From: Natronococcus sp. AD-5
Lineage (GTDB): Archaea > Halobacteriota > Halobacteria > Halobacteriales > Natrialbaceae
Assembly (NCBI RefSeq): GCF_030734285.1
Contig: NZ_CP132295.1
Span: forward strand, 620,001-684,000
DNA: 64,000 bases
Direction: 5' to 3'
Of the stretch, positions 3,211 through 18,968 are shown piece by piece. The notes under the pieces are model-generated. The model saw only the letters and a list, made by a program, of their open reading frames with translations. It did no database searches and was not told where the DNA came from. Numbering within the stretch: the first letter of the stretch is position 1; the number at the start of each line of letters is the position of its first letter. Position numbers and translations under genes: made by a program.

Positions 3211-3843
3211 TTAATCATACTTCCGCACATTATACCATCTAGAGAACCCTCTGAGCATGTCTTCAGCAATCTCTGTTGTTTTTGGCGTGAGAACTCCTGA
3301 CGAGCTATTAGTCGCTGGTCCGTCACCTCCAGCACGAGGCGACGGGCCATGTCCTCGAAGCTATCTAGTCCAACCCGTCAGCTCCAGTCCGTAAGTGTTG
3401 TTCTGCGATGAAGGCGTAGGCTAACATCACCACGGCCAAGTGGTGATGTTAGTCCTTCCACGTTCGTCCTTGGAACTCATCAGCTCCAAGCACTTGCTTG
3501 ACTTCCTTGTGGAACTGCTCGATCGTCCATCGCACATGCGCCCACGAGACTAACTCTTCGAGCGTATGATCGTCGAGCCCCCAGCAGATCCATGCCTCAA
3601 TCGACGAGTCATCATCGGCTGGCTGCTCCTTCTGGACGAGCAGCCAGCCGACTTATCAGAAACTCGCCGCTCGTTGATGTTCTTTACTACCCGAACATGC
3701 TTTTGGACAAACAGCCCGGAAAACGTTCCCTTGCTTCCTTCCGCCCACTCAACTTCTATCCAACCATTCTCCTCATCAACGGCCTGAGCGAACTCCCCAG
3801 CAGTGCGTGGAGTCACCTTCTCAGGGATCGTTGGAAATTGCCG
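3211..3843 (-). pseudogene. IS701-family transposase C-terminal remnant
   Basis: On the minus strand the C-terminal part of an IS4/IS701-type transposase can be pieced together from several frames: TAGEFAQAVDEENGWIEVEW, then ICWGLDDHTLEELVSWAHVR, WTIEQFHKEVKQVLGADEFQ (the YREK-like signature region), HHHLAVVMLAYAFIAEQ, and finally EIAEDMLRGFSRWYNVRKYD to a TAA at 3211-3213. Frameshifts near 3650 and 3310 and in-frame stops near 3450 and 3370 break it. The N-terminal half is missing: the remnant ends abruptly at about 3843 where IS6-type sequence begins, so that element or a deletion removed it. Not functional. Confidence 0.75.
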
Positions 3844-3900
3844 CGCCGGGCCGCAGCCCGGTGTCGGCCCCGGTTCGAGCAGTTCTTGGAATCAACTGTC

Positions 3901-4130
3901 ATGCAACCCCAAGAACCGCTCACCATCACTCTCGATTTTGATCCTCTTCAACGCTGGACTGAAGAGAGCACCGCGAGCACCCTCAGAGCGCTCGCGGTGC
4001 GGCTCCATTCCTCGGGGCTCTCACTTCGTGAGACAGCCGCCGCTCTTGAACAGTTCGGCGTGAATCGATCTCATCAAGCGGTGTTCCAGTGGGTTCACTG
4101 TGTCGCCGAGGAGGCACCCGAACCGCAACT
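3901..4130 (+). pseudogene. IS6-family transposase 5' fragment
   Basis: From the ATG at 3901 the frame encodes the typical N-terminus of a haloarchaeal IS6 transposase: a helix-turn-helix region with STASTLRALAVRLHSSGLSL, RETAAALEQFGVNRSHQAVF and QWVHCVAEEAPEP. The catalytic DDE core that should follow is gone. Resemblance ends near 4130, about 50 bases before the left end of the IS630 element. The fragment abuts the IS701 remnant on its left, where a GC-rich hairpin-forming stretch (3844-3875) may be the IS6 end. About 80 of roughly 220 residues remain. Confidence 0.65.
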
Positions 4131-4181
4131 GCTTAATGATCACGATAACTTTGGCAAATGGGACGAGAGGAACATTTCATA

Positions 4182-5258
4182 GGGTCGTGCGTAAATGATT
4201 GCACCTCCTGGATAGAGGTGGTTCCAGATATCCGGTTCCTCAACCGTCGGGAGTCCTCTCTTGAGCTGTTCTTTCAGCGTAGGCAAATCTGGAACTAGTT
4301 GATGCTTGAACCCTTCTTTTAGGCGATCCCAGCATCCTTCCAGTGGATTCAGCTCCGGCAACTTCGGAAGGCAGTACCAGACCTCCAGATCGGTTCCACC
4401 CACGCAGGCGGCCGAACTGTCCTTGACGATTTCGGTCGCCCGCTCTCCGCTGACGTGCTCTCAGAGATCCCGTGTGTAGAAATACCCAGCACAACCCAGA
4501 AACACCATCAACTTCTCACCAAATCGGGTTTTGAGTGATTCTACCAACCAAATCCCGTGCGCATTTCTAGATTATCTTCCGTCCAGCAGTAGAAGCTGTC
4601 ACCGTCGTCGGTGACAGCGCCAAGCACTGCCACCTTGTCTCAGGAGTTCGAGGTCTCAGTTGTTGGATCCGAGCCGATCGAGTACCAGCCACGACGATTG
4701 ACTGTGCCGACACGCTTTGTGAACTAATCGACAACGACGTCAGTTTTCTCGCTCAGTTCCGGCTGTTTTTGACTGTCTATTGAAATTCGGCTTCCTGATC
4801 GGGATCGACTTCGTGGTTACGCGGTCGTGCTGTCCGATAGGACAGCCCGGCTTTGCCCAACAACTTGCGAGTGTGTTCCTTGCTGTATTCGACATCGTAC
4901 TCGTTTTTGACCTGCGCGAGCAGCAACTTCGTCGACCATGCCTGTTGCTCATAGCCGAGTTCAGTGGGTGGATTCTGGAGACCGTCAAACAGCTCTTCGC
5001 GCTGATGCTCGTTGAGTTTCGAGGGACGACCTGAACGAGGATCGTCGTAGGGAGCCTGCTCGATCGGTTCTTCCTCGAACCGATCGAGGCAGTTGAGAAT
5101 GGTTCTCTCAACAACTCCGTGACGCTCAGCTAATGTGTCGATTTGATCGCCTTGCTTGCGGCCAATCGCAGCGAGAGCCCGTTCCCGAGGAATCTCCCTT
5201 TGGTTTTTTCACGCAGCTCGTGGAGTTCTTCCAGCGTGATGTCGTCCAATCGACTCAT
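4182..5258 (-). pseudogene. IS630-family transposase, multiply frameshifted
   Basis: The N-terminus starts MSRLDDITLEELHELREK at 5258. Further on come a helix-turn-helix with DRFEEEPIEQAPYDDPRSGR, a PSKLNEHQREELFDGLQNPP segment, and at the C-terminal end LPELNPLEGCWDRLKEGF, which is the third catalytic motif of IS630 transposases (Asp/Glu near the ELNP.E box). These blocks lie in different frames with several stops between, including a TAG or TAA soon after the N-terminus (about 5130) and in the 4480-4780 stretch. It cannot make a functional transposase. Confidence 0.75.
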
Positions 5259-6258: not shown

Positions 6259-6389
6259 ACTCCGATTCAACCCCTTGATTTCCTGCTGACTATCTATAGC
6301 TTCTCAGACGTTGATTTTCGGAGAATTAGATCCTAGAGGCTCTGTTGAAATCCTTAGTGAATAATAAATTCAGCGAGTAGTTCGAGTGG

Positions 6390-7212
6390 ATGCAGACTCT
6401 CCCAAAGTCTCGGGCACTTCGATTTTGTTGAGGAGGCATATCAGTTAGCGCAACGTGCTGTAGCTCGATACTCCTCGAAGTTCTCGAAACAACGCTACAC
6501 GCACCATCAGCACATCGTTCTCCTGTGTCTCAAAGTTCGGAAGAACACGACGTATCGAACACTTCTCGATGAACTCATTGAGATGCCTCGCATTCGGAAC
6601 GCTATCAACCTCACCGAACTTCCTGCGCCGTCAACGCTATGCAAGGCGTTCGATAGACTCGATATGGCCGACTGGCGAGTCCTTCTCAACCTCTCTGTTT
6701 CACTGCTTCCGACAAACGATGTTGCGGGGATCGACGCCCCGGGCTTCGACCGAAGTCACGCCTCGAAGCACTATACGAACCGGGCGAAGTAGACGATTCA
6801 GCAGTTGAAAGTCACGCTCTTAGTCGATACGAGAGTTAACGCGATCCTCGATCTCCACGTCACAACGACCCGCAAGCACGATACACAGATCGCACCATCG
6901 CTTATCAACCGCAACACGGCTGAAGTTGATGTTCTTCTTGGAGACAAAGGATACGACGATCAGCAGATTCGAGCGATGGCCCGTAAGTACGAGATTCGTC
7001 CACTCATCAAACACCGTGAGTTCTCATCACTTCAGAAAGCGTGGAACGCTCGGTTGGATTCCGAATTTTACGGCCAACGGAGCCAGAGCGAAACGGTGAA
7101 CTCTCGACTCAAGCGAAAATACGGTGCATTCGTCCGTTCACGACGCTGGTGGAAGCAGTTTCGTGAACTCGCCCTTGCGTGTATCGTCCATAATCTCAAC
7201 CAAGCCATCTAA
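6390..7212 (+). pseudogene. IS5-family transposase, frameshift plus stop
   Basis: The product is an IS5-type DDE transposase of the common haloarchaeal ISH group. The start MQTLPKSRALRF is at 6390. A frameshift near 6430 moves the frame to VEEAYQLAQRAVARYSSKFS, which runs on through TTYRTLLDELIEMPRIRNAI. The first catalytic Asp is present in AGIDAPGFDRSHASKHY. A TAG at 6790-6792 follows NRAK, and the rest continues in frame: the second Asp in LGDKGYDDQ and the C-terminal Glu in GQRSQSETVNSRLKRKYGAF, ending HNLNQAI. Two lesions separate the catalytic residues, so it is inactive unless decoded past the stop. Confidence 0.8.
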
Positions 7213-7299
7213 CGATCAGTACAGGAAAAGCAGCTATCGAATGTGGAGAGGACATTACCTTGTCAGAAGACACTTAACGGCCCAAATGGACGGTATCTT

Positions 7300-7683
7300 A
7301 TGGAACGAAGGGCCTTCCTCGCTGCTTCAGGATCAGGTCTAACAGTACTTTCTACAAGGTGTGTGAGCATCGATTATTTTCGGAACTATAAGTTTATAGT
7401 GACCAATGGGTCAGATAACGCGCATTCTATTGGTATTCGTGTTGATGATAGTGACACAAACACGGTCTTTGAAGATACGTTCGAAATGGTCGGATTAACT
7501 GCTAATGAAGGAATGTCAATCGACGGAACTCCATCCAACATTTACGTCACAATAGATTCGAATGATGAACAGGAGCTATCTTGGCCGTTAGAAGCAGGTG
7601 ACAGGGTCTCAGAAGTGAATATTGAGAACAACCCAATTTATCATCTTGATCAAGATGTTTTCATTCATACTGTACAGGTTTAG
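7300..7683 (+). CDS. Predicted twin-arginine lipoprotein, IS passenger
   Basis: The 127-residue product begins MERRAFLAASGSGLTVLSTR followed by Cys. This looks like a haloarchaeal Tat lipoprotein signal: twin arginines, a short hydrophobic stretch, then a lipobox-like site. The residue before the cysteine is Arg where Gly or Ala is usual (LSTGC expected), so lipidation may fail. The mature part is acidic and beta-rich (NYKFIVTNGSDNAHSIGIRV), compatible with a small extracellular beta-sandwich. The gene lies between an IS5 transposase and the right IS5 end, is A/T-rich, and has no partner gene. Function unknown. Confidence 0.55.
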   Translation: MERRAFLAASGSGLTVLSTRCVSIDYFRNYKFIVTNGSDNAHSIGIRVDDSDTNTVFEDTFEMVGLTANEGMSIDGTPSNIYVTIDSNDEQELSWPLEAGDRVSEVNIENNPIYHLDQDVFIHTVQV

Positions 7684-7770
7684 ACTGTGTCCGCTCAATA
7701 AGCACGTGTAGTGTACAGTAGATTCACGTGAAGGTATATCTAAAGAAAAGTATTTCAACAGAGCCTCTAT

Positions 7771-8445
7771 AATTGGTTCAAGCGACTCGGTGTCGAATCG
7801 CTTGAGCAAGCTGCCACTGATACTCATTGATCTGGAAGAAAACAAAAGATATCAGAAATATATCAAAAACAGTTCAAACAAACACTCCACGGATCACCCA
7901 CTGATATCGGCTACGACGCGCCGGCGTCCCACGTCGGCGCTCGCTCAACAGTATCTCGACGAGACATACGATCCCGTGTACTCAATCCCGAACTGCCGGC
8001 GGTTGCTCAAAGAAGCGGAATTGAGCTATCAAAACCACGCCGGACAGCCGCCGAATCTGACGCTGACGGGCAGGAAGCATTCCGCGAGGAGCTCAAAAAA
8101 AGCAGCGGGAGATGGACGCCACAGTCGTTTGTATCGATCAAACCAAGAAATCTGTTCAAGTTGAGCCGCGTGCTGCGTGGTTTCCGCGCGGCACGCGGCC
8201 AGCCGTCGAATTATCTGGACAACGTGACTGGACGTGTCTGCTGGGCGTAATCACCGAAGGCGGTGATCACTTTTCTCCCGATACGAAGAGTACGTAACCG
8301 GCGAACACGCCAAAAATACCACCCTTCCGTTATGAGAAGAATTCCGAGAAGACTTGATCATCATTCTCGATGGTGCGCTATATTTTCGGGCGTCGGCCGT
8401 CACGGACCTGGCGGCCCGTGACGACCTCGCCTTCGTGAGATTGCC
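7771..8445 (+). pseudogene. Second IS630-family transposase relic
   Basis: Translation in shifting frames gives WFKRLGVESLEQAA at the left, next to the IS5 end, then PTDIGYDAPA, QQYLDETYDPVYSIPNCRRL and LKEAELSYQ, then the first catalytic motif in MDATVVCIDQTKKSVQVEPR, WFPRGTRPAVELSGQRDWTC, and the second near 8367-8445 (IILDGALYFRASAVTDL). The third motif (PELNP) is missing. At least four frameshifts and stops separate the blocks. It differs from the IS630 element at 4182-5302. Its 5' end was removed where the IS5 element now ends. Confidence 0.7.
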
Positions 8446-8614
8446 GACGAATCGAAACGGGACAGGGTTAGAGGTCGTTCATAGAACAGGGACTACAGAG
8501 AAGGGGCGCTATTGCCGTATCTGATGAGCAGATACACTACTAGTATATTAAATAATGAGCAAAGGTAGTATCAAACACCACCTAGTACATTCGTATAGCA
8601 TACTGGACGTGCCG

Positions 8615-8635
8615 GAGCAGCTCTCTCAGCTGCTC
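8615..8635. repeat. Inverted repeat upstream of usp gene
   Basis: GAGCAGC (8615-8621) and GCTGCTC (8629-8635) form a perfect 7-bp dyad with a 7-base spacer, about 100 bases before the universal-stress-protein start. It is a possible regulator site. Apart from this and the ribosome site, 8446-8733 shows no gene. Confidence 0.3.
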
Positions 8636-8717
8636 GATGCACTATTGGAGTGTCGTTTTATGAGAACTGAGATGCAGGTACGGTCAACGATGTCTTTTCA
8701 AGGGCTGGCGAACAAGT

Positions 8718-8723
8718 AGGAGG
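8718..8723 (+). promoter_or_regulatory. Ribosome binding site of usp gene
   Basis: AGGAGG lies 10 bases before the ATG at 8734. A TTG at 8728 is in frame but only four bases from the site, so the ATG is preferred. Confidence 0.5.
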
Positions 8724-8733
8724 ATGATTGACC

Positions 8734-9597
8734 ATGTTTGAGACTATTCTCATCCCGGTTGACGGGAGTGATACTGCGAAGCGTGCTGCTACGGTCGGGT
8801 GTGGACTTGCACAACGCTATGACGCGCGTCTAGACGTCCTCCACGTCCTCGAAGGACAATCACGTCTTCCCGGCAAGAGAGGAGACCAAGACCCGAAAGA
8901 GAAGGGCCGCGACATTCTTGATGAGATTGCGGACCTCGCCACTGGGAACGATCTCATGATTAACACTCATCTAGTAGAGGGGCGGCCTTACGAGGCCATC
9001 GCTGAGCACGCAAATGAGGCTGGCAGTGACCTCATTGTGATAGGCCGTCATGGCCGGGGTGGAGTGAGAGAACGCCTCCTTGGTACCGTCACCGATCGCG
9101 TGTTGCGTCAGACTAATGTCCCGGTGCTGACCGTTCCCGGTGAAGACATCGAGAGCATCACTGGTGGCACGTATGAAAATACCCTCATCACGACGGATGG
9201 CAGTGAAAACGCCGAACAAGCAGCACCCTATGGCGGAGATCTCGCCCAGCACTTCGAGGCCACACTCCACCTACTCAATGTGGTTGACGTGCAGGCTGAG
9301 GCAGGCGCCTTCGATGCCGGTGGCGTGTCAGAGAACTTCATCGAACGACTCGAGACAGAGGGCCAAGAGGCAATCGAGCGACTTGCCCAACAGATCGATG
9401 ACACCGGCGTTCCGATGCAATCAGCCGTGGTACGAGGGGATTCACAGGAAGCTATCGCTGACTACACTGCCGAGAACGATATTGACCTGATCGTAATGGC
9501 ATCCGAGGGAGAATCGAATCTGGCCAGTCAATCCCTTGGAAGCGTCACGGACCGCGTTCTCCGCACTGTGGATGTGCCAGTACTCGTCGTCTTTTAA
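8734..9597 (+). CDS. Tandem universal stress protein (UspA x2)
   Basis: The 287-residue protein consists of two fused UspA domains, residues about 1-140 and 148-287. Each opens with the typical strand ([FY]E[TN][IT]L[IT]P/TTDGS) and each carries the ATP-binding glycine pattern: GRHGRGGVRERLLGT in the first, and ASEGESNLASQSLGS in the second, where the leading Gly is Ala. Both end in VTDRVLR...VPVL. Such proteins bind ATP or AMP in the cytoplasm and support stress survival. In haloarchaea usp genes often sit beside amino-acid permease genes, and a permease relic lies just downstream on the other strand (10005-10367). The gene is intact amid decayed neighbours and has a good ribosome site. Confidence 0.9.
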   Translation: MFETILIPVDGSDTAKRAATVGCGLAQRYDARLDVLHVLEGQSRLPGKRGDQDPKEKGRDILDEIADLATGNDLMINTHLVEGRPYEAIAEHANEAGSDLIVIGRHGRGGVRERLLGTVTDRVLRQTNVPVLTVPGEDIESITGGTYENTLITTDGSENAEQAAPYGGDLAQHFEATLHLLNVVDVQAEAGAFDAGGVSENFIERLETEGQEAIERLAQQIDDTGVPMQSAVVRGDSQEAIADYTAENDIDLIVMASEGESNLASQSLGSVTDRVLRTVDVPVLVVF

Positions 9598-9806
9598 CAG
9601 CGATACATCTTCTCGAACGGTCTGTGATTTGCTGGGCGACGGAAACGCCGCCGGAATGTATTCACGCTCTTTTCTCGTATACCCTGATCATTTATCATAT
9701 AATTCTGCCACTCACGGAGTACCCAATGGCAGTCTTCGAATTACCACAATTCGGTGGAAACTGACTATTCGAGGCAATATTGCGTGAGTAGCGAGCTGAT
9801 CCAATG

Positions 9807-9991
9807 GCTCTGTTGAATAGGGGTAGGTGTGCTACAGCCACGAACTATAGGTTGAAAGGCAATATCTCAGAAATCAATCTTCATTCTCGCCACCAAGCCA
9901 GATAAGTACGCTATTCACGACTGCTAAACGAACCTGTCTACGGCACACTTTTCTTTATATAGGGCAGTGTAAATAAGCTATTCAACAGGGC
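9807..9991. mobile_element. MITE-like element with IS5-type ends
   Basis: A 185-bp segment is bounded by inverted ends GCTCTGTTGAATAG (9807-9820) and the complement of GCCCTGTTGAATAG (9978-9991), with one mismatch. It contains no frame long enough for a transposase. The ends share GCTCTGTTGAA with the 18-bp ends of the IS5 element at 6334-7769, so a related transposase could have mobilised it. Its right end is followed within about 15 bases by the broken 3' end of the permease relic, suggesting the insertion or a linked deletion truncated that gene. The stretch 9598-9806 shows nothing. Confidence 0.55.
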
Positions 9992-10004
9992 ACTGCGAAC
10001 TACT

Positions 10005-10367
10005 AGAGGAACGGCGAGGAAGACGGCGACGTATTCGCCGAAACCGACGAGTAGAATGCCGATGCAAACGCCATGCCGAGCCAGCTTCCGAGGCCGGCTA
10101 TCGTGCCGGCCATTGGACCAAGTGCACGGTCAATGTAGACGTACGTTCCACCCGCTTGGGCATGGCCGTACTCAACTCGCTGGCGGTCGCGGCGGTAAAC
10201 AGCCCGATCACGCCACCGAGGACGAACGCCGCCGTGGCAGCCGGTCCCGCATCAGCCGTTGTAGCACCGGCCAGGACAAAGATACCTGCCCCGACCATCG
10301 TCCCTACACCGATCATCAGTGCCAAGAAGAGCCCGAGATCTCGTGGGAGTTCATCGGTGTCGGACAT
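10005..10367 (-). pseudogene. APC amino-acid permease, truncated N-terminal part
   Basis: The minus strand starts MSDTDELPRDLGLFLALMIG at 10367 and runs through the first two membrane helices of an amino acid-polyamine-cation permease (GVGTMVGAGIFVLAGATTAD, then AAFVLGGVIGLFTAATASEL). After a frameshift near 10150 comes GGTYVYIDRALGPMAGTIAG and LGSWLGMAFASAF in a second frame, and a further shift before GEYVAVFLAVPL. Members of this family have 12 helices and over 450 residues; here sequence stops after about 120 residues at the MITE-like element. The adjacent usp gene fits the common permease-Usp pairing. Confidence 0.75.
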
Positions 10368-10611
10368 CCGTCAGTATTCACCTTTTCCTACGTTACTCCG
10401 AGCTGTGGAGGGCCAAAACGATCTCGTAGGGCGGGTTTGAGGCTGCCGGGAAAGAGTCTGCGCCATGCAGACGACGACATGTGTATTAGACTGTGATGTT
10501 CGTTTTACTCGGACAGACGTGCGGCGATCGAGACGTATTCCCCTCGCTTGGAATACGCAGGGGATGCCGTTTCCTGCATTCTCTTCTCTAGCGGGTCACG
10601 AGAGATGTAAT

Positions 10612-10842
10612 ATGAGCGAAGAACCGGAAAACACGATATGGCTCGCCCGTCATTGGGTGCCAGTTGCTATGCTATCTGCGGTCGTGTTATTCCTCAGTGG
10701 ACTTGGGGTTGCAATCTGGCTAGGATTCCTCGATTTCCTGATCCCAGGAGTGGGAATTGAGACAGCCCCATGGCCAGTATACGCTCTTGTCGGCCTCATT
10801 GTTCTAATCGGTCTTATCGGAGTTTGGAGATGGGTCCGATGA
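10612..10842 (+). CDS. Small two-helix membrane protein
   Basis: The 76-residue product has a short polar N-terminus (MSEEPENTIWLARHW), a hydrophobic helix around residues 16-40 (PVAMLSAVVLFLSGLGVAIW), a short loop with GIETAPWP, and a second helix around 53-72 (VYALVGLIVLIGLIGVWRWV). The start at 10612 is preferred because the upstream extension in this frame is basic and out of character, and an AGAGATGTAAT stretch immediately before is promoter- or leader-like. No partner gene or family is recognised. Confidence 0.55.
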   Translation: MSEEPENTIWLARHWVPVAMLSAVVLFLSGLGVAIWLGFLDFLIPGVGIETAPWPVYALVGLIVLIGLIGVWRWVR

Positions 10843-10888
10843 GCAGTCCGTACCTAATTACTGGACAAAAAGTGTACGAAGCAGACGG

Positions 10889-11031
10889 TTAGATGTATTC
10901 GCCCGGCTGTTCCTTGAACTCCGCTCTGTGCTCCCTCGAACAAAAGCGCAGCGTCTGTCCTTGTATTCCATAACGATTTTCTTCTCTTCATCTTCGTACA
11001 GCTCTTTGCCGCAGACGGGACATGTATTCAT
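10889..11031 (-). pseudogene. YHS-domain protein with one-base deletion
   Basis: From the ATG at 11031 the frame reads MNTCPVCGKELYEDEEKKIV and MEYK. One base appears missing near 10960, since the continuation QTLRFCSREHRAEFKEQPGE followed by YI and TAA is in the next frame. Rejoined, it is a 47-residue YHS domain, with CPVC and C.R.H metal-ligand pattern; such domains bind metal and occur in metal-handling proteins. Total length is one base short of a multiple of three. The lesion is a single base in CTGTCCTTG, so a sequencing or assembly error is a real alternative. Confidence 0.6.
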
Positions 11032-11389
11032 CAGTATTACCGTGGATTAGTCGGCCAGCAAGGAATATGTGATTTGTAGCAACCTGAACTCGCAATCACG
11101 CCAATGGTGTCGCGAGTGTGTCTGACTGATTCACGGGAAGCCACGGGCTACTGTGCCCGTGACGGTTCACTAAATTGGGAAAGTGTTGAGAGAGCCGTGT
11201 GGTTACCGTTCAAGGAAGTAGAGCGTGAAAGTTACTGGAGCTATTAGAGTCCTTGAAATTAGGAGAATTGGTGTTCCTCTGGGCGTGTCCTCATTAATAG
11301 TATTGTCGAGAGTGCTTCTAGAATATTATAGAAGATTGTCCAATAACATCCCCAAATCCATTAGCTCATCTAATCAAAACTATAGATAT

Positions 11390-12456
11390 GGAGATGAAAC
11401 GTACTTCAATGAATTTACTGAGCGTGACTGGCAGACCACCGACGATGGTAAGTCAATTCAGCTTGCCGTCATCGGACTGGGCTGGTTTACTCGCGACCGT
11501 GCATTGCCAGCTATCGAAAAATTACTGTTTTGCGAGACGATAGTAATCGTCAGTGGATCATCCGAGAAAGCAAAAAGGGTGGCGATGGAGTTTTATATTG
11601 AACATATCATTAACCATAAATCATTTCGAGACGGTGCAGCGAGTGCTGCCTACGATGCTGTGTACATCGCGGTACCTAACTCCTTGCACCTCGACTATAC
11701 GAAGGATGCAGCCAAGCTAGGGAAACACGTTCTCTGTGAGAAGCCGCTCGAGGTGAGCGTTGATCGTGCCGAACAGATGGTCCGTGCCTGTGCAGACGCT
11801 GACGTAATTCTCATGACTGCCTATCGGTTGCGGACTGAACCGGCTGTCAGGCGGGTGCGCGAGATGATTCAAGATGGCGTCATCGGCGACCCGGTGCAAA
11901 TTCATAGAGGCTTTTCCTCACGCCTAATTGATGCGGCTGGGAGTGATACCTGGCGACTCGATCCCGAGTTGGCTGGCGGCGGAGCCCTCATTGACATCGG
12001 CATCTATCCGCTGAACACAAGTCGCTTCCTTTTGAATGCGGATCCAGTTACTATTCAGGCTAATACGTTCTCGACACAGGAGGTTTTCGACGCAGTTGAA
12101 GAAAATGTGGCATTTCAATTAGCTTTTTCGGAGGGTGTGACAGCTTCCTGCACCGCAAGTTTCAACGATATCCTGACAGTCGCCTCCAGGTTATCGGCAC
12201 TGAGGGGCAAATAGTCATTGACTCACCGTTTGATGGAGACGTGCCACAGCACATTACCGTCAAGCACGGAGAGATGAGTGCAAAACATACTGGGCCACCA
12301 ATCGATGAAGTTGTCGAAGAATTCGATTACTTTGCCAATTGCATCCTCACCGACGCTTCATGTGAATCATCAGGAGAAGATGAATTGGAAGACGTCCGCA
12401 TCATCAGAGCTGCGTACGAATCTGCGGAGAATGGGAGACTCATCGATCTAAAATAA
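11390..12456 (+). pseudogene. Gfo/Idh/MocA sugar dehydrogenase, frameshifted
   Basis: This is a Rossmann-fold NAD(P) sugar dehydrogenase close to the haloarchaeal D-xylose 1-dehydrogenase (Gfo6) group. Recognisable parts are FNEFTERDWQTTDDG, the nucleotide-binding VIGLGWFTRD, HVLCEKPLEVSVDRAEQMV with the EKP signature, AYRLRTEPAVRRVREMI, and DIGIYPLNTSRFLLNADP. After VASR near 12190 the frame must shift to give VIGTEGQIVIDSPFDGD and then VVEEFDYFANCIL to the stop at 12456, so one indel splits the C-terminus. No ATG opens the N-terminal frame; the open frame further upstream to 11225 looks spurious. An intact relative is at 57368-58465. The stretch 11032-11389 is otherwise empty. Confidence 0.75.
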
Positions 12457-12800
12457 TAGTTACTGGAACAACACTCATTTTAACCGGTCTGGTCCGAAAA
12501 TATCGAGAAACAAGAAGGGATATAGTTTTATTTGTTGTCAAAGTGAGGTGAGATGAATATCTTTTCAGTCTTCAACGCATAGTGTACATATTGTGCTTGG
12601 GCCACATTCTCCTAGCGCCCTGTTTTGATTTTGGCCGCTTTTCTGTAGCGTAGCGGAACCAGACTACGATCATTAGGGCCTCCCATTGAGATTCCCACTG
12701 TTTCTGTCCCGAAGATGACGTCGATCGACTTTCTCAAGTGGGCGGAGATGGCTGTTAACACAAGTCGCGTATATATTGTTGTCAAGACTGGGATGTATAT
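12457..12800. other. A/T-rich intergenic stretch with promoter
   Basis: No gene is supported. A minus-strand frame (12612-12815) lacks family resemblance. CGTATATATTG at 12766-12776 is a clear TATA-like box about 28 bases before the DUF7344 start at 12801. Confidence 0.4.
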
Positions 12801-13180
12801 ATGGAGAAAAGTCAACGCCAGAGTATAGAGGACCCCCCGCTATCCCTCAGGTCTGATGGTGATCCACAGATCGATGAACTCTTTACCGCGCTCACAGACT
12901 ACCGGTGGCGGTGTGCACTTCATATCTGGTGAAGAAGAACGTGCATCGCTGGCGGATGTCGCCCAACAGATCACGGCGTGGAAGCAGGAACGTCCATCCA
13001 CCGATGTTTCAGATGATCAAGAAGATCAAAATAGAACTCTATCAAAACCATCTTGAGCGGCTACTCGAAGCGAACATTGTCATGTATGACCAACACTCCG
13101 CGATGATCGTCTATCGCAACCCATACAATCTCATCGAGGCGTGTCTCGAGCTCTGTGTATGGCAAGATTATCCCGGTTGA
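12801..13180 (+). pseudogene. DUF7344 winged-helix protein, two frameshifts
   Basis: Starting at the ATG at 12801, the first frame gives DPQIDELFTALTDYRWRCAL. A second frame continues EEERASLADVAQQITAWKQE and RPSTDVSDDQEDQ, and a third gives IELYQNHLERLLEANIVMYD and ends EACLELCVWQDYPG at 13180. Together these rebuild the DUF7344 winged helix of haloarchaeal regulators (helix with LADVAQQI, recognition part LYQNHLERL, wing NIVMYD). Two indels, near 12930 and 13020, break it. A good TATA box remains upstream, so the RNA may still be made. Confidence 0.65.
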
Positions 13181-13304
13181 CCTACGCTAGGGCAGATCAC
13201 AAGCTGTCCGGCATTGGCAGCGGTGATCCGAAGCCCTACGTGCCAAACCGGAAAACTGCCGCCGGTGCGCCGGCAAGATAAGATCTATTAGCTCAAATCC
13301 ATTT

Positions 13305-13660
13305 TCACGGGTCTTCTCTGGTGAGCAATCCCGTCGTCACTAATCGGCGAAGAAGTACCACAACGCCATTTTGAAGGCCTTTGGCGAAGATCGCCTGTTC
13401 TCTCGTTCTGCCGCCGCCAGCTCCCGGATGGTACAATCCGATCAGGAGTGTCTCGCGGTCGACGAGCAGTATTCGGCTGATCGCGATTTCGTCGTCCTCG
13501 CTCCTGACGAGCTAGTTGAGGTCGGTTTCAAACACGCAGGTGGTAGAGAGTTCTGTCTCGAGTGTCTCCGCAATCGCTTCGGTCTGTCCGCCGAGAACAA
13601 TCGAGAGTTCTCTCTCTGCTGTCTCCTGTACGCTTATCAGACAAAGTAGCGCTGTGACGG
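13305..13660 (-). pseudogene. TrmB-like regulator C-terminal fragment
   Basis: The minus strand reads AERELSIVLGGQTEAIAETL, ETELSTTCVFETDLN, an in-frame TAG (about 13515), then LVRSEDDEIAISRILLVDRE, TLLIGLYHPGAGGG and REQAIFAKGLQNGVVVLLRR to a stop at 13305. It resembles the sensor half of TrmB-family regulators as found in haloarchaea (lines such as RILLVDRETLL and GLLTREDP), but this is by eye. The DNA-binding half is absent. Not functional as it stands. The stretch 13181-13304 is empty. Confidence 0.4.
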
Positions 13661-13970
13661 TTAATTGTTCCGTGAGCCCGTTTCAAGCCCTTGGTCCTCC
13701 GTGACGATGAGTTCGCCCATCCGCTCCAGTCAATCACGACATTATAAATCACTGGCGACTTCTCTACACTATTGACTCATTTGAGAACATCTCCTCCACC
13801 AATTCTCCAGACACCACCGTCTGTACCTCTGGAGAAAGCCGTACCGAATCCACGGGTGAACCAGTACACCGCTACTGCTACGTCGATGCTTATGGCGGAC
13901 CGGAGTGGCTCAAGCACTTTGGGTGACCACATCAACCCGCGCGAAATTGAAGAGTAACGTTAACAGCCTT
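13661..13970. other. No supported gene; start-less open fragment
   Basis: A plus-strand open stretch ending at 13926 reads SPDTTVCTSGESRTESTGEP and VHRYCYVDAYGGPEWLKHFG. It has protein-like composition but no start codon, and I do not recognise it. It is probably the tail of a deleted gene. Confidence 0.25.
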
Positions 13971-14285
13971 TCTGTCGTTTTCCGGGGGTAACAAGTCTGA
14001 GTTTCCGATTCAGGAAATCCCAACGCTTTTGTGAGAGAATATCATGGGGCCACTGACGGGGGCACAGTGGGCGCGTTGCCAAGCGCTTCATTCTTGTTCC
14101 GCACCACGCCCACCTACCGAGTCAAGTGTTTGCCAACACACTCGGCCACCATAACTGTGCCCGGTCACACCGCGCTCCCTCGAGTAGGTTCGGGAAGTGA
14201 CGTTCTTAACCAACAGCGGCGGTCTCGGGTGGTCAGTATTGGTTAAGGCCCAAGACGATTTCGGCACCGGTGAGTCTCTTCAAAG
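13971..14285 (+). repeat. ~310-bp direct repeat, copy 1
   Basis: Begins TTAACAGCCTTTCTGTCGTT and ends GGTGAGTCTCTTCAAAG. It aligns in the same orientation with 15893-16197, at roughly 70-75% identity by eye, with matching blocks CTTTTGTG, CATGG, GACGGGGGCACAGT, CAAGTGTT and CCCTCGAGT. Neither copy encodes a convincing protein. The copies flank the microprotein, integrase remnant and coiled-coil gene at 14291-15932. Confidence 0.5.
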
Positions 14286-14290
14286 TATAA

Positions 14291-14467
14291 ATGTCTCTTA
14301 TCGAAAGTAGTGCACGCTCGGGTGATCGCACTGGGCGAGATGAAATGTGGGCCGAGATTATTATCGGCTTTGTAGCATCGTACGGAGCACTGATAGGGAT
14401 GCTCCGAACGGCTGACAGTTCGTCGCCACTCTACTCAAGGTTGTGGTGTGGCGAATCCTCACGGTAG
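14291..14467 (+). CDS. Possible 58-residue protein
   Basis: The frame starts MSLIESSARSGDRTGRDEMW with a mildly hydrophobic middle (AEIIIGFVASYGALIGML) and an ordinary tail. It begins right at the end of repeat copy 1. There is no promoter at leaderless distance and no family. The rest of 14468-14880 shows nothing beyond a hairpin-like AAGCCCCGTCCTGGGGCTT at 14503-14521. Confidence 0.2.
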   Translation: MSLIESSARSGDRTGRDEMWAEIIIGFVASYGALIGMLRTADSSSPLYSRLWCGESSR

Positions 14468-14880
14468 AGCTGTCAATCGGTGACGATCCTGATTAGGGAC
14501 GTCGAAGCCCCGTCCTGGGGCTTTGCGACGTACATCATAGACGCCTCAATCTGATTTTGATATGCGCCCGAACGTTGATATAATTAGAATATAGACTCTT
14601 TGTCGTCGGGAGTTGCTGGTGCATTACACAGCACCCGATCATTCCGTTCTATCACACTATGACACGCCACCGGCCCCGCCATGGGGCTTTGCGAAGTGGG
14701 ACCTGGCGTACAAACTGAACCATCAACGTCGCTATCTCTCGCTACTCCCGCCCGGATCGAGAGAACTTGTCGATGATCGTTCCTTCGTCGGACTTTAACT
14801 CTGGTATAGAGTACTCGTTTCAGATATTGAGATATGACGAAAGAATCGACGGGATTTCTGGTGATGGATATATCAAGAAG

Positions 14881-15033
14881 ATGGTAAAGACAGAACCGGT
14901 TCTCATAAGATGTGCCCGCTGCGACTCGGTCTGTGTGGGCCGGATATACGAAGACGGAACAGTCAAACCGAGGAGTCAGTATTCCTGTAGTTGTGGAGGG
15001 GAAGACTTTACAATGATTGAAAACACAAACTAA
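14881..15033 (+). CDS. CxxC/CxC zinc-finger-like microprotein C
   Basis: The 50-residue product has CARC near residue 11 and CSC near 36 (ending CSCGGEDFTMIENTN), with EDGTVKP between. It follows the same plan as microproteins A (2345-2524) and B (34509-34688): first cysteine pair, a DGT.KP or DGT.NP turn, then a CxC and a short tail. Identity outside these points is low and the N-terminus is shorter, so it is a divergent member. The start at 14881 is chosen to match the others; upstream codons in frame add an unrelated extension. It does not share the upstream element of A and B. Function unknown. Confidence 0.55.
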   Translation: MVKTEPVLIRCARCDSVCVGRIYEDGTVKPRSQYSCSCGGEDFTMIENTN

Positions 15034-15048
15034 TCAGTTCTGACTCTG

Positions 15049-15355
15049 TTATTTTCGCCCAGTATGAGCAAACTCATCGATAATCGTCTCCTCGTCGGGT
15101 TTCGAGAGGTAGGACTCGAGACTCTGATAGTTGTCCCAGCCTCCGACTTCCATCACTACCTGTGGTTCATCCGCTCGCGGACGAGCATGGTGTGAGCGAA
15201 GTATCGGCGTGAGTCGTGCGATGAGATATTGAGGTAATCGTCGTCGCCCGTTGCGTCCCCTGCTCTCTCCACTATCCGTTTGACAATCCGTTGCACCGTC
15301 CGCGGCGTAACATCGATCACGGGCTCGCTTGGTGCGATCTCGTGCTCATACTGTC
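15049..15355 (-). pseudogene. Tyrosine recombinase (integrase) C-terminal fragment
   Basis: On the minus strand the sequence reads PSEPVIDVTPRTVQRIVKRI, VERAGDATGDDDYLNISSHD with SRRYFAHTMLVRERMN next, then after a frameshift near 15165 VVMEVGGWDNYQSLESYLSK and ends IIDEFAHTGRK. This is the catalytic end of an XerD/phage-type integrase: HDSRR supplies the His-x-x-Arg motif, GGW precedes the active-site region, and the Tyr in ESYL is the likely nucleophile. The N-terminal two thirds are absent. It probably marks an integrated plasmid or provirus that has decayed, together with the coiled-coil gene next to it. Confidence 0.65.
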
Positions 15356-15427
15356 AGCTAAAAATTCATGGAGTTCAGCCATGCGTCTGACGCATCTATA
15401 ACGGACCAGAGCGCATCGCTGGCGCAC

Positions 15428-15932
15428 ATGGAGCGCATCACTCTCTATGCCCGGGAGAATCACCTCGAACAAATCCGATCTGGCCAAGAATCGGCGGATG
15501 GCGATATATCCGAAGCGGAAGCGGTGCGCCGTATCTTTGATCGAGCAGCGGAAGCAGACCGTGCCGAAGCGGAGCGCGAATCGATTCGCTCCGAGTACGA
15601 ATCGAAGAAGATTCGATCCGGTCCAACACGAATCGGAACTCGAATCGGTCCGAAGCGAATACGAATCGCGGATTGACGACCTCGAGCAAGATGTGGAACG
15701 ACTGCGCAACGAGAAACGCACACTCATCAATGATCGCGAAGAGCGGACTGAGCTAGTCGAGTACGTCGAAGAACAGCGTGAAGTCGAACGCTATCGCGAT
15801 CGCCAGCAACGGAAGATCGACCAAGCTAGAGTTCTCACACGCGCGAAGTGGGCACTCGTAGGGATGCCTACCGACGACCCCGAGGAGTATCCTAACAGCT
15901 TTTCTGTTGTTCTCCGGGAGTGCCAAGCCTGA
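15428..15932 (+). pseudogene. Ribbon-helix-helix/coiled-coil protein, frameshifted
   Basis: The N-terminus from the ATG at 15428 reads MERITLYARENHLEQIRSGQ, then ISEAEAVRRIFDRAAEADRA. This is the strand-helix-helix pattern of CopG/Arc-type DNA-binding proteins, with SEAEAVRRI at the second helix. A charged coiled coil follows, and a frameshift near 15605 moves the frame to VQHESELESVRSEYESRIDD, LEQDVERLRNEKRTLI and a C-terminal TRAKWALVGMPTDDPEEYPN. Such proteins are common on haloarchaeal plasmids and proviruses. The two halves together would be about 165 residues. Its 3' end merges with repeat copy 2. Confidence 0.55.
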
Positions 15933-16197
15933 GCGGCCTATTCAGCAAGCCCCAATACTTTTGTGAACCAATACCATGGCCCCAACACGACGGGGGCACA
16001 GTAACCGTTGACAAGCGATCCAGTACTGGTTCCACACCGTCCCACCTAACCAAGTGTTGTCACACCCAGGTTGCCGCGTGCTCCGGTCATGCTACCCCCT
16101 CGAGTCGCGGACCTGTTGCTTCTGTTCCGGTTTGGAAAGTTGTCCCAGCTGGGCCAGTTTTTCAGCATCCTCGAGACGACGGTGAGTCTCTTCAAAG
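15893..16197 (+). repeat. ~310-bp direct repeat, copy 2
   Basis: Homologous to 13971-14285. Copy 2 ends in TCTCTTCAAAG exactly where the left inverted repeat of the next IS5 element begins, so that element appears to sit at the edge of, or inside, this copy. Confidence 0.5.
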
Positions 16198-17137
16198 GGC
16201 TTTGGTGAATCGCTAGACGGCGCCGACTTGCTCCGTCACAACTAGGGAGTTGAAGCGGGAAACGGTGGATGCTTCATATCCAAAATATCCCTCTTCACTG
16301 GGAAGGTCGTGACGGCGGCTAAAAGTGCTGTTGGTTGCCAAGGCGAATCCGCCGCCCCGCAGGGTGGCGGATTCGCCGACTACACCGTCGTTTCGCTGCA
16401 TTGTCTCCGGATTTACCTGGAGAAATCCTACAGCGAAGCGCTCGACCTCTTGAGCGAAATGCCACAAATACTGGCGGAGATCGGCCTTCAAAAGGCCGAT
16501 CTCCCGTATCATTCGACGCTAGTGGAAGCGTTTGACAGGATCAAGATGGCAGTCTGGCGAGTGCTGCTGCGCCTGTCGGCGCAGCTGCACGGGCCATCCG
16601 GTCGTGCAGCGATGAACGCGACGTTTTTCGACCGCGAAAACGCGAGCAAGCACTACTGCCGCCGCACGAATTACCGTGTTCAGACGCTCAAGACGACCGC
16701 TCTTGTAGATACAGCAACACAGGCCGTTCTCGACGTTCACTGTATGACGAAGAAACGCCACGACACTCAGCTCGGCTGGCAACTCGCCCGTCGCAACGCG
16801 GGCGAGTTGCACAGCCTCGCCGCCGACAAAGGCTACGATTTGCAACGGTTACGCGAGAAGCTGCGGGAAGAGGACGTGAGACCGCTGATCAAGCATCGTG
16901 AGTTCCGCCCCATCGATCACGCGCATAACGCGCGGATCGATGGGACTCTCTACGGCCAAAGAGCACTGTCTGAAACCGTCTTCTCCGTGATCAAGCGCAC
17001 GCTCGGCGACGCCGTGTGTGCGCGAAGCTGGTATCGAGAGTTTCGTGAAATCGTCTTGATGTGTGTCGTCTACAACATCAAACGTGCTGTGAGCTAGGGA
17101 AATCCACCGCCGTATGGCGATTCACCACGGCCCTTGA
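16192..17137 (+). mobile_element. IS5-family element, second type
   Basis: Imperfect inverted ends lie at 16192-16213 and 17117-17137 (GGGC..[T]GGTGAATCGC conserved), enclosing about 0.95 kb with one transposase gene. This size is usual for haloarchaeal IS5 elements. The ends differ from those of the 6334-7769 element. No clear target duplication seen. Confidence 0.6.
16276..17097 (+). pseudogene. IS5-family transposase, start lost and active-site Asp changed
   Basis: The frame is open for 274 codons and matches haloarchaeal IS5 transposases through GFADYTVVSLHCLRIYLEKS, MAVWRVLLRLSAQLH, SKHYCRRTNYRVQTLKTTAL, AADKGYDLQRLREKL and GQRALSETVFSVIKRTLGDA, ending YNIKRAVS. Relatives begin MSKIS or similar; here that codon is ATA (16276-16278), with a TAG 33 bases before it, so only a GTG at 16309 could start translation. 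In AAMNATFFDRENASKHY the first catalytic Asp, normally in IDATFFD, is Asn (16615-16617). Both changes indicate an inactive enzyme although the frame is otherwise intact. Confidence 0.75.
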
Positions 17138-17447
17138 GCCATAGTCTCTAAGTGGTTTTCCCCTCATACCGATGGCTTCGTACTTAACAACACCTTCACA
17201 GTCGGAGGAACTCGTCGAGTACACTCGGCTCTCGCCTTCCTTGCCTTAATTCTCTTTGAGCAGGTTTGCGAGTGTCATAAGCACCACTTAGTGAGACTTA
17301 CTCCCGTCTTAAACACATTTAATTATCTAACATATAGAATATTATTTCTCATATGCAGAGGTTAATAAACTTTGTTCTCTGTTCATTCTTTTCATTTCAA
17401 GTAATGGTTATATTACTAACTACATGATTCTCATCAGCCATGATTGC
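17138..17447. other. A/T-rich intergenic stretch before subtilase
   Basis: No gene is seen. TTATATTA at 17408-17415 is a TATA-like box about 35 bases before the subtilase ATG at 17448, consistent with a short leader. Confidence 0.4.
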
Positions 17448-18968
17448 ATGTCTGACAGAAAACCAAGCATCAGCGAATTTAGTCGGCGGAAAGTCCTCCA
17501 AGGAGCAGGCGCTGCGGGCGCAGCAGGACTTCTGTTTGGAGGAACCATAAGTGCGCAATCTAACCAAGACAATGAACCTGAGTCGGAGGAAGAACCGGAG
17601 GACCCGAGTACCATAACCGAAGAAGCCAGGTTTAACGTTGGATACAGCAATTCGGACGGCGCACAGATGGTAGAAAAGGTGGCAGACGAGGTGTGTCGGA
17701 AGATCGAACCGATTGGTATGATGACGATCAACGCCGGTCTCAAGGAACTTCAGGAGTTCCAAGAGTCCGACGATGTTGACTTCATCGAAGTCGACTTGGA
17801 AGTTCAAGTTGATCTTCCACCACAGGATATTCAAGCTCAACAGGAGCCAAACGGTCAAATAGTTCCCTGGGGGATCGAACGAATTGGGTCACTTGAAGCC
17901 CACGAATCGGGCTTTCGAGGAGAAAACGTCGACGTTGCGGTGCTAGATTCAGGGATTTATCCCTCTCACGAGGACTTGTACGAGAATATCGGTGAGGGGT
18001 TTGCTCCGATTCCGTGTCAAGGAGATTGTGAGGAAGAATGGGATGATGACCATGGTCACGGAACGCATGTCGCCGGAACCATTGCTGCGCTCGATAATGA
18101 AATCGGTGTCCTCGGCGTTGCACCGGACATCACGCTTCACTCTGTCAAGGTATTAGATGAAAACAATGCAGGGACTATCTCAGCTATCGTCGACGGCCTT
18201 GTCTGGACCGCCGAACAAGGATACGATATTGCAAACATGAGTCTCGGCGGTCCCAATAGCCTCGCTATGCAGCTCGCGATTGAATTCGCGCATGAACAGG
18301 GGGTCTTGCTTGTCGCCGCAGCAGGAAACGCCGGTCTTCCTCAGGTCAGTTTTCCAGCAGCCTATGAAGAGACTATTGCAGTAAGCGCGACGACACCGGA
18401 GGATACACATGCTGTCTTCTCAAATTTTGGCCCCGAAATCGAACTTGCGGCCCCCGGTGTTGAGATTTTATCAACACTTCCGCCTAACGTGACTATCAAT
18501 CCGACATCAGAACTCTATGGTGAACTTCAGGGCACGTCAATGGCGACACCTCATGTAAGCGGGGTTGGAGCACTCCTCATGGCATTGGGGTATTCTGCCG
18601 AAGAGACACGGGAATTCATGAACGAGACTGCAGAAGACCTCGGGCTCCCGCCTGAAGAGCAAGGCTCTGGACTCGTTAATGCTGCTGCAGTCGAAGCAGA
18701 ACCAGAACCATCAGACCCGGTCAGAGAACTCCTACGGCTTGTCAATGAAGCAGTCCAACTGGTCCAACAAGCAGTACAGCTCATTTTGTCGGGTGGGTCA
18801 CTAGATGAAGCCCGTCGGCTTCTTCGTAATGCAGCTCAGCTACTCCAGGAAGCTCGTGAGATCTTCCGTGGTCTCGATGAAAGCGAAGCAAGCGAAGTAA
18901 GATCTGACCTCACCTCTGCTGAAGATGATCTCGCCGAGGCAGAGTGTCTCCTGACTGAAGAAGAATGA
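17448..18968 (+). CDS. Secreted subtilisin-like serine protease (S8)
   Basis: The 506-residue protease is halolysin-like. A twin-arginine signal (SRRKVLQGAGAAGAAGLLF, residues 12-30) directs folded export. Residues about 55-125 form a propeptide of inhibitor type. The S8 catalytic domain follows, with Asp167 (VAVLDSGI), His204 (HGHGTHVAGT), oxyanion Asn294 (AAAGNAG) and Ser364 (GTSMATPHVSG). After about residue 425 comes an unusual helical tail of about 80 residues (PVRELLRLVNEAVQLVQQAV, LDEARRLLRNAAQLLQEARE, then acidic), predicted as coiled-coil-like, in place of the Cys-containing or PKD-type extensions of many halolysins. The ATG at 17448 is preferred over 17424 because of the TATA position. 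The gene is intact and alone. Confidence 0.9.
   Translation: MSDRKPSISEFSRRKVLQGAGAAGAAGLLFGGTISAQSNQDNEPESEEEPEDPSTITEEARFNVGYSNSDGAQMVEKVADEVCRKIEPIGMMTINAGLKELQEFQESDDVDFIEVDLEVQVDLPPQDIQAQQEPNGQIVPWGIERIGSLEAHESGFRGENVDVAVLDSGIYPSHEDLYENIGEGFAPIPCQGDCEEEWDDDHGHGTHVAGTIAALDNEIGVLGVAPDITLHSVKVLDENNAGTISAIVDGLVWTAEQGYDIANMSLGGPNSLAMQLAIEFAHEQGVLLVAAAGNAGLPQVSFPAAYEETIAVSATTPEDTHAVFSNFGPEIELAAPGVEILSTLPPNVTINPTSELYGELQGTSMATPHVSGVGALLMALGYSAEETREFMNETAEDLGLPPEEQGSGLVNAAAVEAEPEPSDPVRELLRLVNEAVQLVQQAVQLILSGGSLDEARRLLRNAAQLLQEAREIFRGLDESEASEVRSDLTSAEDDLAEAECLLTEEE

Follow-up and report, generated by a model that had tools for sequence, protein, structure and literature searches.

Insertion sequences (IS) are usually regarded as carrying their own transposase alone, and textbook IS5 elements consist of a transposase only, enclosed by short ends. 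Transporter IS (tIS), or transporons, are IS-related elements with passenger genes, found for instance in IS1595. In Haloquadratum, MITEs and ISH2-type elements are small, possess inverted repeats and are mobilised in trans, and one class contains a non-transposase ORF (PMC3119063). In Halorubrum lacusprofundi, Hlac_3088 was described as the passenger gene of a transposon whose family and ends were not given; its protein is secreted, has a PGF-type C-terminus and was proposed as a virus-exclusion candidate (PMC10544981).

The window analysed here, a stretch of 64,000 nucleotides from Natronococcus sp. AD-5, contains an element which is very probably a decayed member of a pan-haloarchaeal, three-module IS5-type family of gene-carrying insertion sequences. 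The element covers positions 6338–7765 (1428 bp). The core of its left terminal inverted repeat (GGCTCTGTTGAAA, 6338–6350, plus strand) was identical at 13 of 13 positions to the right core (7753–7765, minus strand, TTTCAACAGAGCC as read on the plus strand), and 17 of the 18 outermost base pairs matched when counted inward from 6338 and 7765. The first-pass annotation had proposed identical 18-bp ends and limits at 6334–7769 (1436 bp). The inverted repeats proved to be real, with the identical 13-bp core, but the outer 4 bp (TAGA/TCTA) belong to the flank, which rules out the 18-bp repeat as the true end. The ends were placed at 6338 and 7765 because the sequence from 7766 lies inside an IS630-type gene that resumes there after the interruption, and in agreement with the family boundaries. 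In nearly all relatives, the same left core precedes the start of the transposase by 52 bp.

The transposase of the window copy is an IS5-type DDE pseudogene (6390–7212, plus strand), identified by a PF01609 match on its C-terminal part (E=2e-16). Intact relatives have 273 codons, and an intact paralogue matched NCBIfam NF033579 (transpos_IS5_2) with 219 bits for a cut-off of 140. In the window, an extra T near position 6423 shifts the frame and a TAG stop occupies positions 6790–6792: this transposase is dead, and the copy would now move only with transposase supplied in trans. The conserved stretch CGATCAGTACAGG (7213–7225, plus strand), directly after the stop codon (7210–7212), marks the end of the conserved left module. 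The right end is located 553 bp past this stop, so that the distant right end noticed beforehand (at a claimed 540 bp) was borne out. It is formed by a conserved right module of approximately 71 bp (7695–7765, plus strand), which recurs in relatives with other cargo, namely in Natrialba, Natrinema, Halocatena and Halogranum and in other elements of the same genome.

Between the two modules, an intact frame (7300–7683, plus strand) encodes a Tat-type lipoprotein of 127 amino acids (ERRAFLAAS...LSTRC lipobox). Its N-terminus, MERRAFLAASGSGLTVLSTRC, shows by eye the twin-arginine signal followed by the lipobox cysteine that characterises haloarchaeal lipoproteins. This signal and lipobox make the cell surface the most likely place of action of the protein. 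The extra DNA is indeed A/T-rich, as had been observed together with the Tat lipoprotein: the cargo has 42% GC, compared to 60% for the window. The search of the protein against Pfam and NCBIfam returned no family, and the single-sequence AlphaFold model was unusable (pLDDT 33). Relatives with a like signal (MKRRSVLAAIGTSLTVFSAGC and similar) were 35–45% identical and corresponded to scattered genes in other Natrialbaceae genomes. No further copy of the full 1.43-kb unit with the lipoprotein was found elsewhere, nor was a second element combining IS and lipoprotein found among these relatives. The lipoprotein was looked for elsewhere with IS ends, and this gave a near-match upstream of three relatives and neither a paired end nor a duplication. 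These near-matches, IS ends of 13 bp with one mismatch at most 150 bp upstream of the lipoprotein gene (L049 position 1357, L050 position 1486 and L051 position 1357), exceeded the chance expectation and had no partner end. The lipoprotein as a regular IS cargo elsewhere was rejected, as the relatives showed no complete element, paired end or duplication.

On its right side, the element is bordered by a fragment of the interrupted IS630-type element (7766–8449, plus strand, with a DDE_3 match). The complete IS630-type element measures approximately 1060 bp. The genus has about ten other copies, and a further one occurs in this genome (C2:118780-119390). In the other copies of the genus the sequence continues across the insertion point and has no repeat, which rules out the right repeat as a part of this adjacent element. 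The first 210 bp or so of the target were looked for in the left flank within the window and were not found, and the left flank was therefore probably deleted or rearranged after the insertion. The 8-bp target duplication was likewise absent around the window copy, the flanking 8-mers being different (ATCCTAGA and TCTATAAT). The window copy would have inserted into the IS630-type transposase gene; DNA on the left side would then have been lost with the duplication and the transposase would have died, the lipoprotein frame surviving. A segment of 53 bp to the left of the element (6270–6322) is repeated at C1:3870646-3870698 with 85% identity and may represent the terminus of a different mobile element. 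Just past the IS cluster, positions 8728–9597 encode a protein with two universal stress protein domains.

The survey of relatives covered the best 80 transposase loci from a scan of GTDB contigs, all of them haloarchaeal. A right end could be identified at 59 of the 80; at the other 21 the left or the right end was unidentifiable, several of these loci having a contig end nearby. The distance from the stop codon to the right end was at least 315 bp in all 59 elements, which ranged from 1189 to 8323 bp in length. None of the 59 had a right end just after the transposase, and since the search range started before the stop codon, it would have included a right end in the usual place. With regard to IS5 characters, the family has the DDE transposase of IS5 type (by the NF033579 match of the paralogue and the PF01609 match of the window copy) and short inverted repeats with a 13-bp core. 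It also shows a duplication of fixed length, as a perfect 8-bp target duplication flanked 30 of the 59 elements compared to 1 of 3190 cross-pairings, the window copy having none. The compact form ending soon after the transposase was not encountered, 315 bp being the minimum. An IS5 transposase with such a distant right end is therefore not a canonical IS5 element. Approximately half of the right-ended elements had no clean duplication, and recombination between copies explains some of these cases and not all. Across the class, the transposase (E ≤ 1e-60) was present in 168 of 292 haloarchaeal genomes.

These data bear on a reading in which an ordinary IS sits beside a separate neighbour, the right repeat coming from a MITE or another IS and the lipoprotein being a trapped host gene. 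The window copy has no target duplication, as would be expected in this case, and right-type ends without a nearby transposase do exist in its genome (L044). Against this, the DNA beyond the right end is the interrupted IS630-type gene, intact copies of which lack the repeat; no family copy among the 59 has a nearby right end; and the same right module closes complete units flanked by a perfect duplication, such as the 1382-bp element of Natrialba magadii (ACTCTTCT). We hold this reading to be extremely improbable. The two observations named in advance as fatal to a cargo-carrying element, other copies ending just after the transposase and a right repeat belonging to an adjacent element, were thus not made. 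The proposal that an archaeal IS5 element of the transporon-like kind carries cargo here was upheld. The cargo design is a property of the whole family, beyond what could be seen from the window.

Several relatives are informative on the movement of the element. Two 1412-bp copies in one genome were 100% identical, cargo included, and were bordered by distinct perfect duplications, TGAGAACC and AATCTCTC; transposase and cargo therefore move as one unit. The ISHla2-type unit of 1193 bp recurred at many sites across three genomes, and its small ORF accompanied it every time. These comparisons of DNA demonstrate for the family that insertion produces an 8-bp duplication and that the transposase moves together with the cargo. 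We infer from the relatives that the window copy, which has no duplication and a dead transposase, would likewise have transposed together with its lipoprotein. The way in which duplications may be lost is shown by two 1471-bp inverted copies (L195 and L196), the flanks of which were reciprocally exchanged by recombination.

Four other places in the same genome matched the transposase part, one of them (C2:789512) being a fragment. The copy at C2:716180-718317 (2138 bp) carries a gene for a threonine-synthase-like PLP enzyme and has a perfect duplication, TAACGTTT. The copy at C2:191206-193219 (2014 bp) carries a nitronate monooxygenase gene, and its duplication is partly decayed. The third (C1:3921468-3924236, 2769 bp), whose cargo encodes a small export protein as well as a TrmB-type regulator, is located inside a unit of 5278 bp (C1:3921468-3926745; positions 7469–12746 of locus L008) which extends between two right-type ends and is flanked by the perfect 8-bp duplication AATTATTG. 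Besides the IS copy, this 5.3-kb unit holds an integrase-like gene, a cupin/zinc-ribbon protein and a membrane protein. The cargo is different in each of the complete copies of this genome and all their right ends are distant. The motif GGTMAGTACAGG was considered as a general cargo boundary and was dismissed, having only four sites in the genome.

The alignment of close relatives revealed three modules. The conserved left module, of approximately 890 bp, comprises the inverted repeat, the transposase of 273 codons and some 20 bp downstream of the stop codon, where the homology ends. The variable middle consists of one or a few unrelated genes. The conserved right module ends in the same inverted repeat, and homology usually resumes 65–75 bp before the right end, or in some close relatives only 17–35 bp before it. 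Among 56 pairs with left modules 90–99% identical, cargo DNA was shared in only two. The elements L123 from Halohasta and L124 from Halovenus have left modules 99.3% identical and unrelated cargo, and archaeal families are intermixed in the left-module tree. The nearest relative of the window copy in the genus, with a transposase 89% identical and the same type of right module, carries a membrane protein of 189 amino acids. The pair L109/L111 was 96% identical, with a common right module of 74 bp. The pair L010/L078 had a common cargo and different right modules.

How the cargo changes may be read from three snapshots. In L008, the 5278-bp unit described above is bounded by two right-type ends. 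In L132, the inner right end is mutated, and beyond it lie an additional CNNM-type gene and a new right end; the duplication of this unit is perfect. In L107, an 8.3-kb unit has gained nos-type genes. From these we infer the capture of cargo by means of a surrogate end: the transposase would pair its own end with a right-type end situated beyond neighbouring genes, so that cargo would be swapped or added. Cargo would also be replaced or added where copies recombine at the end modules that they share, and this process probably reshuffles the modules as well. Cargo turnover might even be due mainly to homologous recombination of resident copies via the transposase and right modules rather than to surrogate ends. 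Identical cargo is found with different right modules, L195 and L196 did exchange their flanks, and both shared modules could act as crossover sites. However, recombination accounts for the reshuffling and not for the entry of wholly new genes, and L008, L132 and L107 resemble the capture of neighbouring DNA. We give recombination as the main route a real chance, clearly less than even. The L107 unit (positions 10001–18300, Natronococcus jeotgali) has a perfect duplication and contains NosD/NosL-type and ABC-2 genes with TrmO; it is possible that its cargo represents mobile nitrous-oxide-reductase accessory genes.

The cargo repertoire ranges over small membrane proteins, lipoproteins, enzymes, regulators and a transporter. 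Pfam matches were obtained for PALP, NMO, methyltransferases, TrmO, SnoaL, RibD, thioredoxin, GNAT, MATE, alpha/beta hydrolase, maltose acetyltransferase and phosphatidylserine decarboxylase. As in transporter IS, passenger genes unrelated to transposition, including the window lipoprotein, are thus enclosed by the inverted repeats. A middle serving only as filler for length or by chance, with incidental ORFs of no function for the cell, would agree with four elements (L090, L110, L111 and that of N. magadii) that have no coding-like ORF. All but these four of 67 elements do have a middle ORF scored as coding by a model of codon usage for which the loci were the training set, many cargoes match known enzyme families, and the threonine-synthase-like cargo common to L010 and L078 has a dN/dS of 0.125. 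Membrane protein and lipoprotein genes were moreover over-represented, with 37 of 64 cargoes compared to 14 expected from length-matched neighbours (2.6-fold, reached in 0 of 2000 draws), the calls being made by crude hydropathy and lipobox rules that perhaps miscalled some short ORFs. Filler is thus a very unlikely explanation. That envelope proteins are in excess points to a theme open to selection, for example a changed surface or the exclusion of viruses.

The family shares its transposase type and terminal repeat with the IS5 elements of NF033579, including ISHla2 of Halorubrum lacusprofundi. The transposase labelled ISHla2 itself sits in the 1193-bp unit of the same design, followed by an ORF of 57 amino acids. 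The ISH1 subgroup of IS5 is delimited by an 8-bp duplication together with the ISfinder sequence grouping; of these two, the comparison covered the duplication, which was of 8 bp. In contrast to textbook IS5, and to a similar IS of 940 bp that is inserted in L097 within an 8-bp duplication of its own and has no room for cargo, the right end in the family always lies beyond a cargo region. As in transporons, inverted repeats and one transposase flank genes foreign to transposition, and the unit moves with target duplications. Unlike the described cases, the family is archaeal and of IS5 type, every member found has a cargo region and a conserved right module of about 70 bp, and near-identical transposases accompany unrelated cargo. 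The window copy, its transposase being dead, would now resemble the Haloquadratum MITEs and ISH2-type elements, whereas family elements normally carry their own transposase. A family element from Halorubrum (L223, positions 3291–5094, 1804 bp to the nearest right end) carries a secreted protein of 233 amino acids with a PGF-type C-terminus. This cargo is probably Hlac_3088, and the species that harbours the element is probably likewise H. lacusprofundi. IS with passenger genes are already known; the family, to which the transposase labelled ISHla2 belongs, is of IS5 type. The family-wide design with swappable cargo in archaea is new here as far as a literature keyword search can tell, which found no systematic account of cargo in this IS5-type family and does not establish priority.

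We propose tentatively, at a little under even chances, that this haloarchaeal IS family may be a general shuttle for single genes, with a nearly always exchangeable cassette, mostly of envelope proteins, some perhaps serving in virus exclusion, acquired through surrogate ends. The gene carried by this common IS5-type family changes with nearly every lineage, and near-identical transposases are found with unrelated cargo across archaeal families. If confirmed, this would provide a simple and testable route by which single genes are transferred in a group noted for its extensive exchange of genes, and the “hypothetical” genes located beside these transposases may be mobile cargo.
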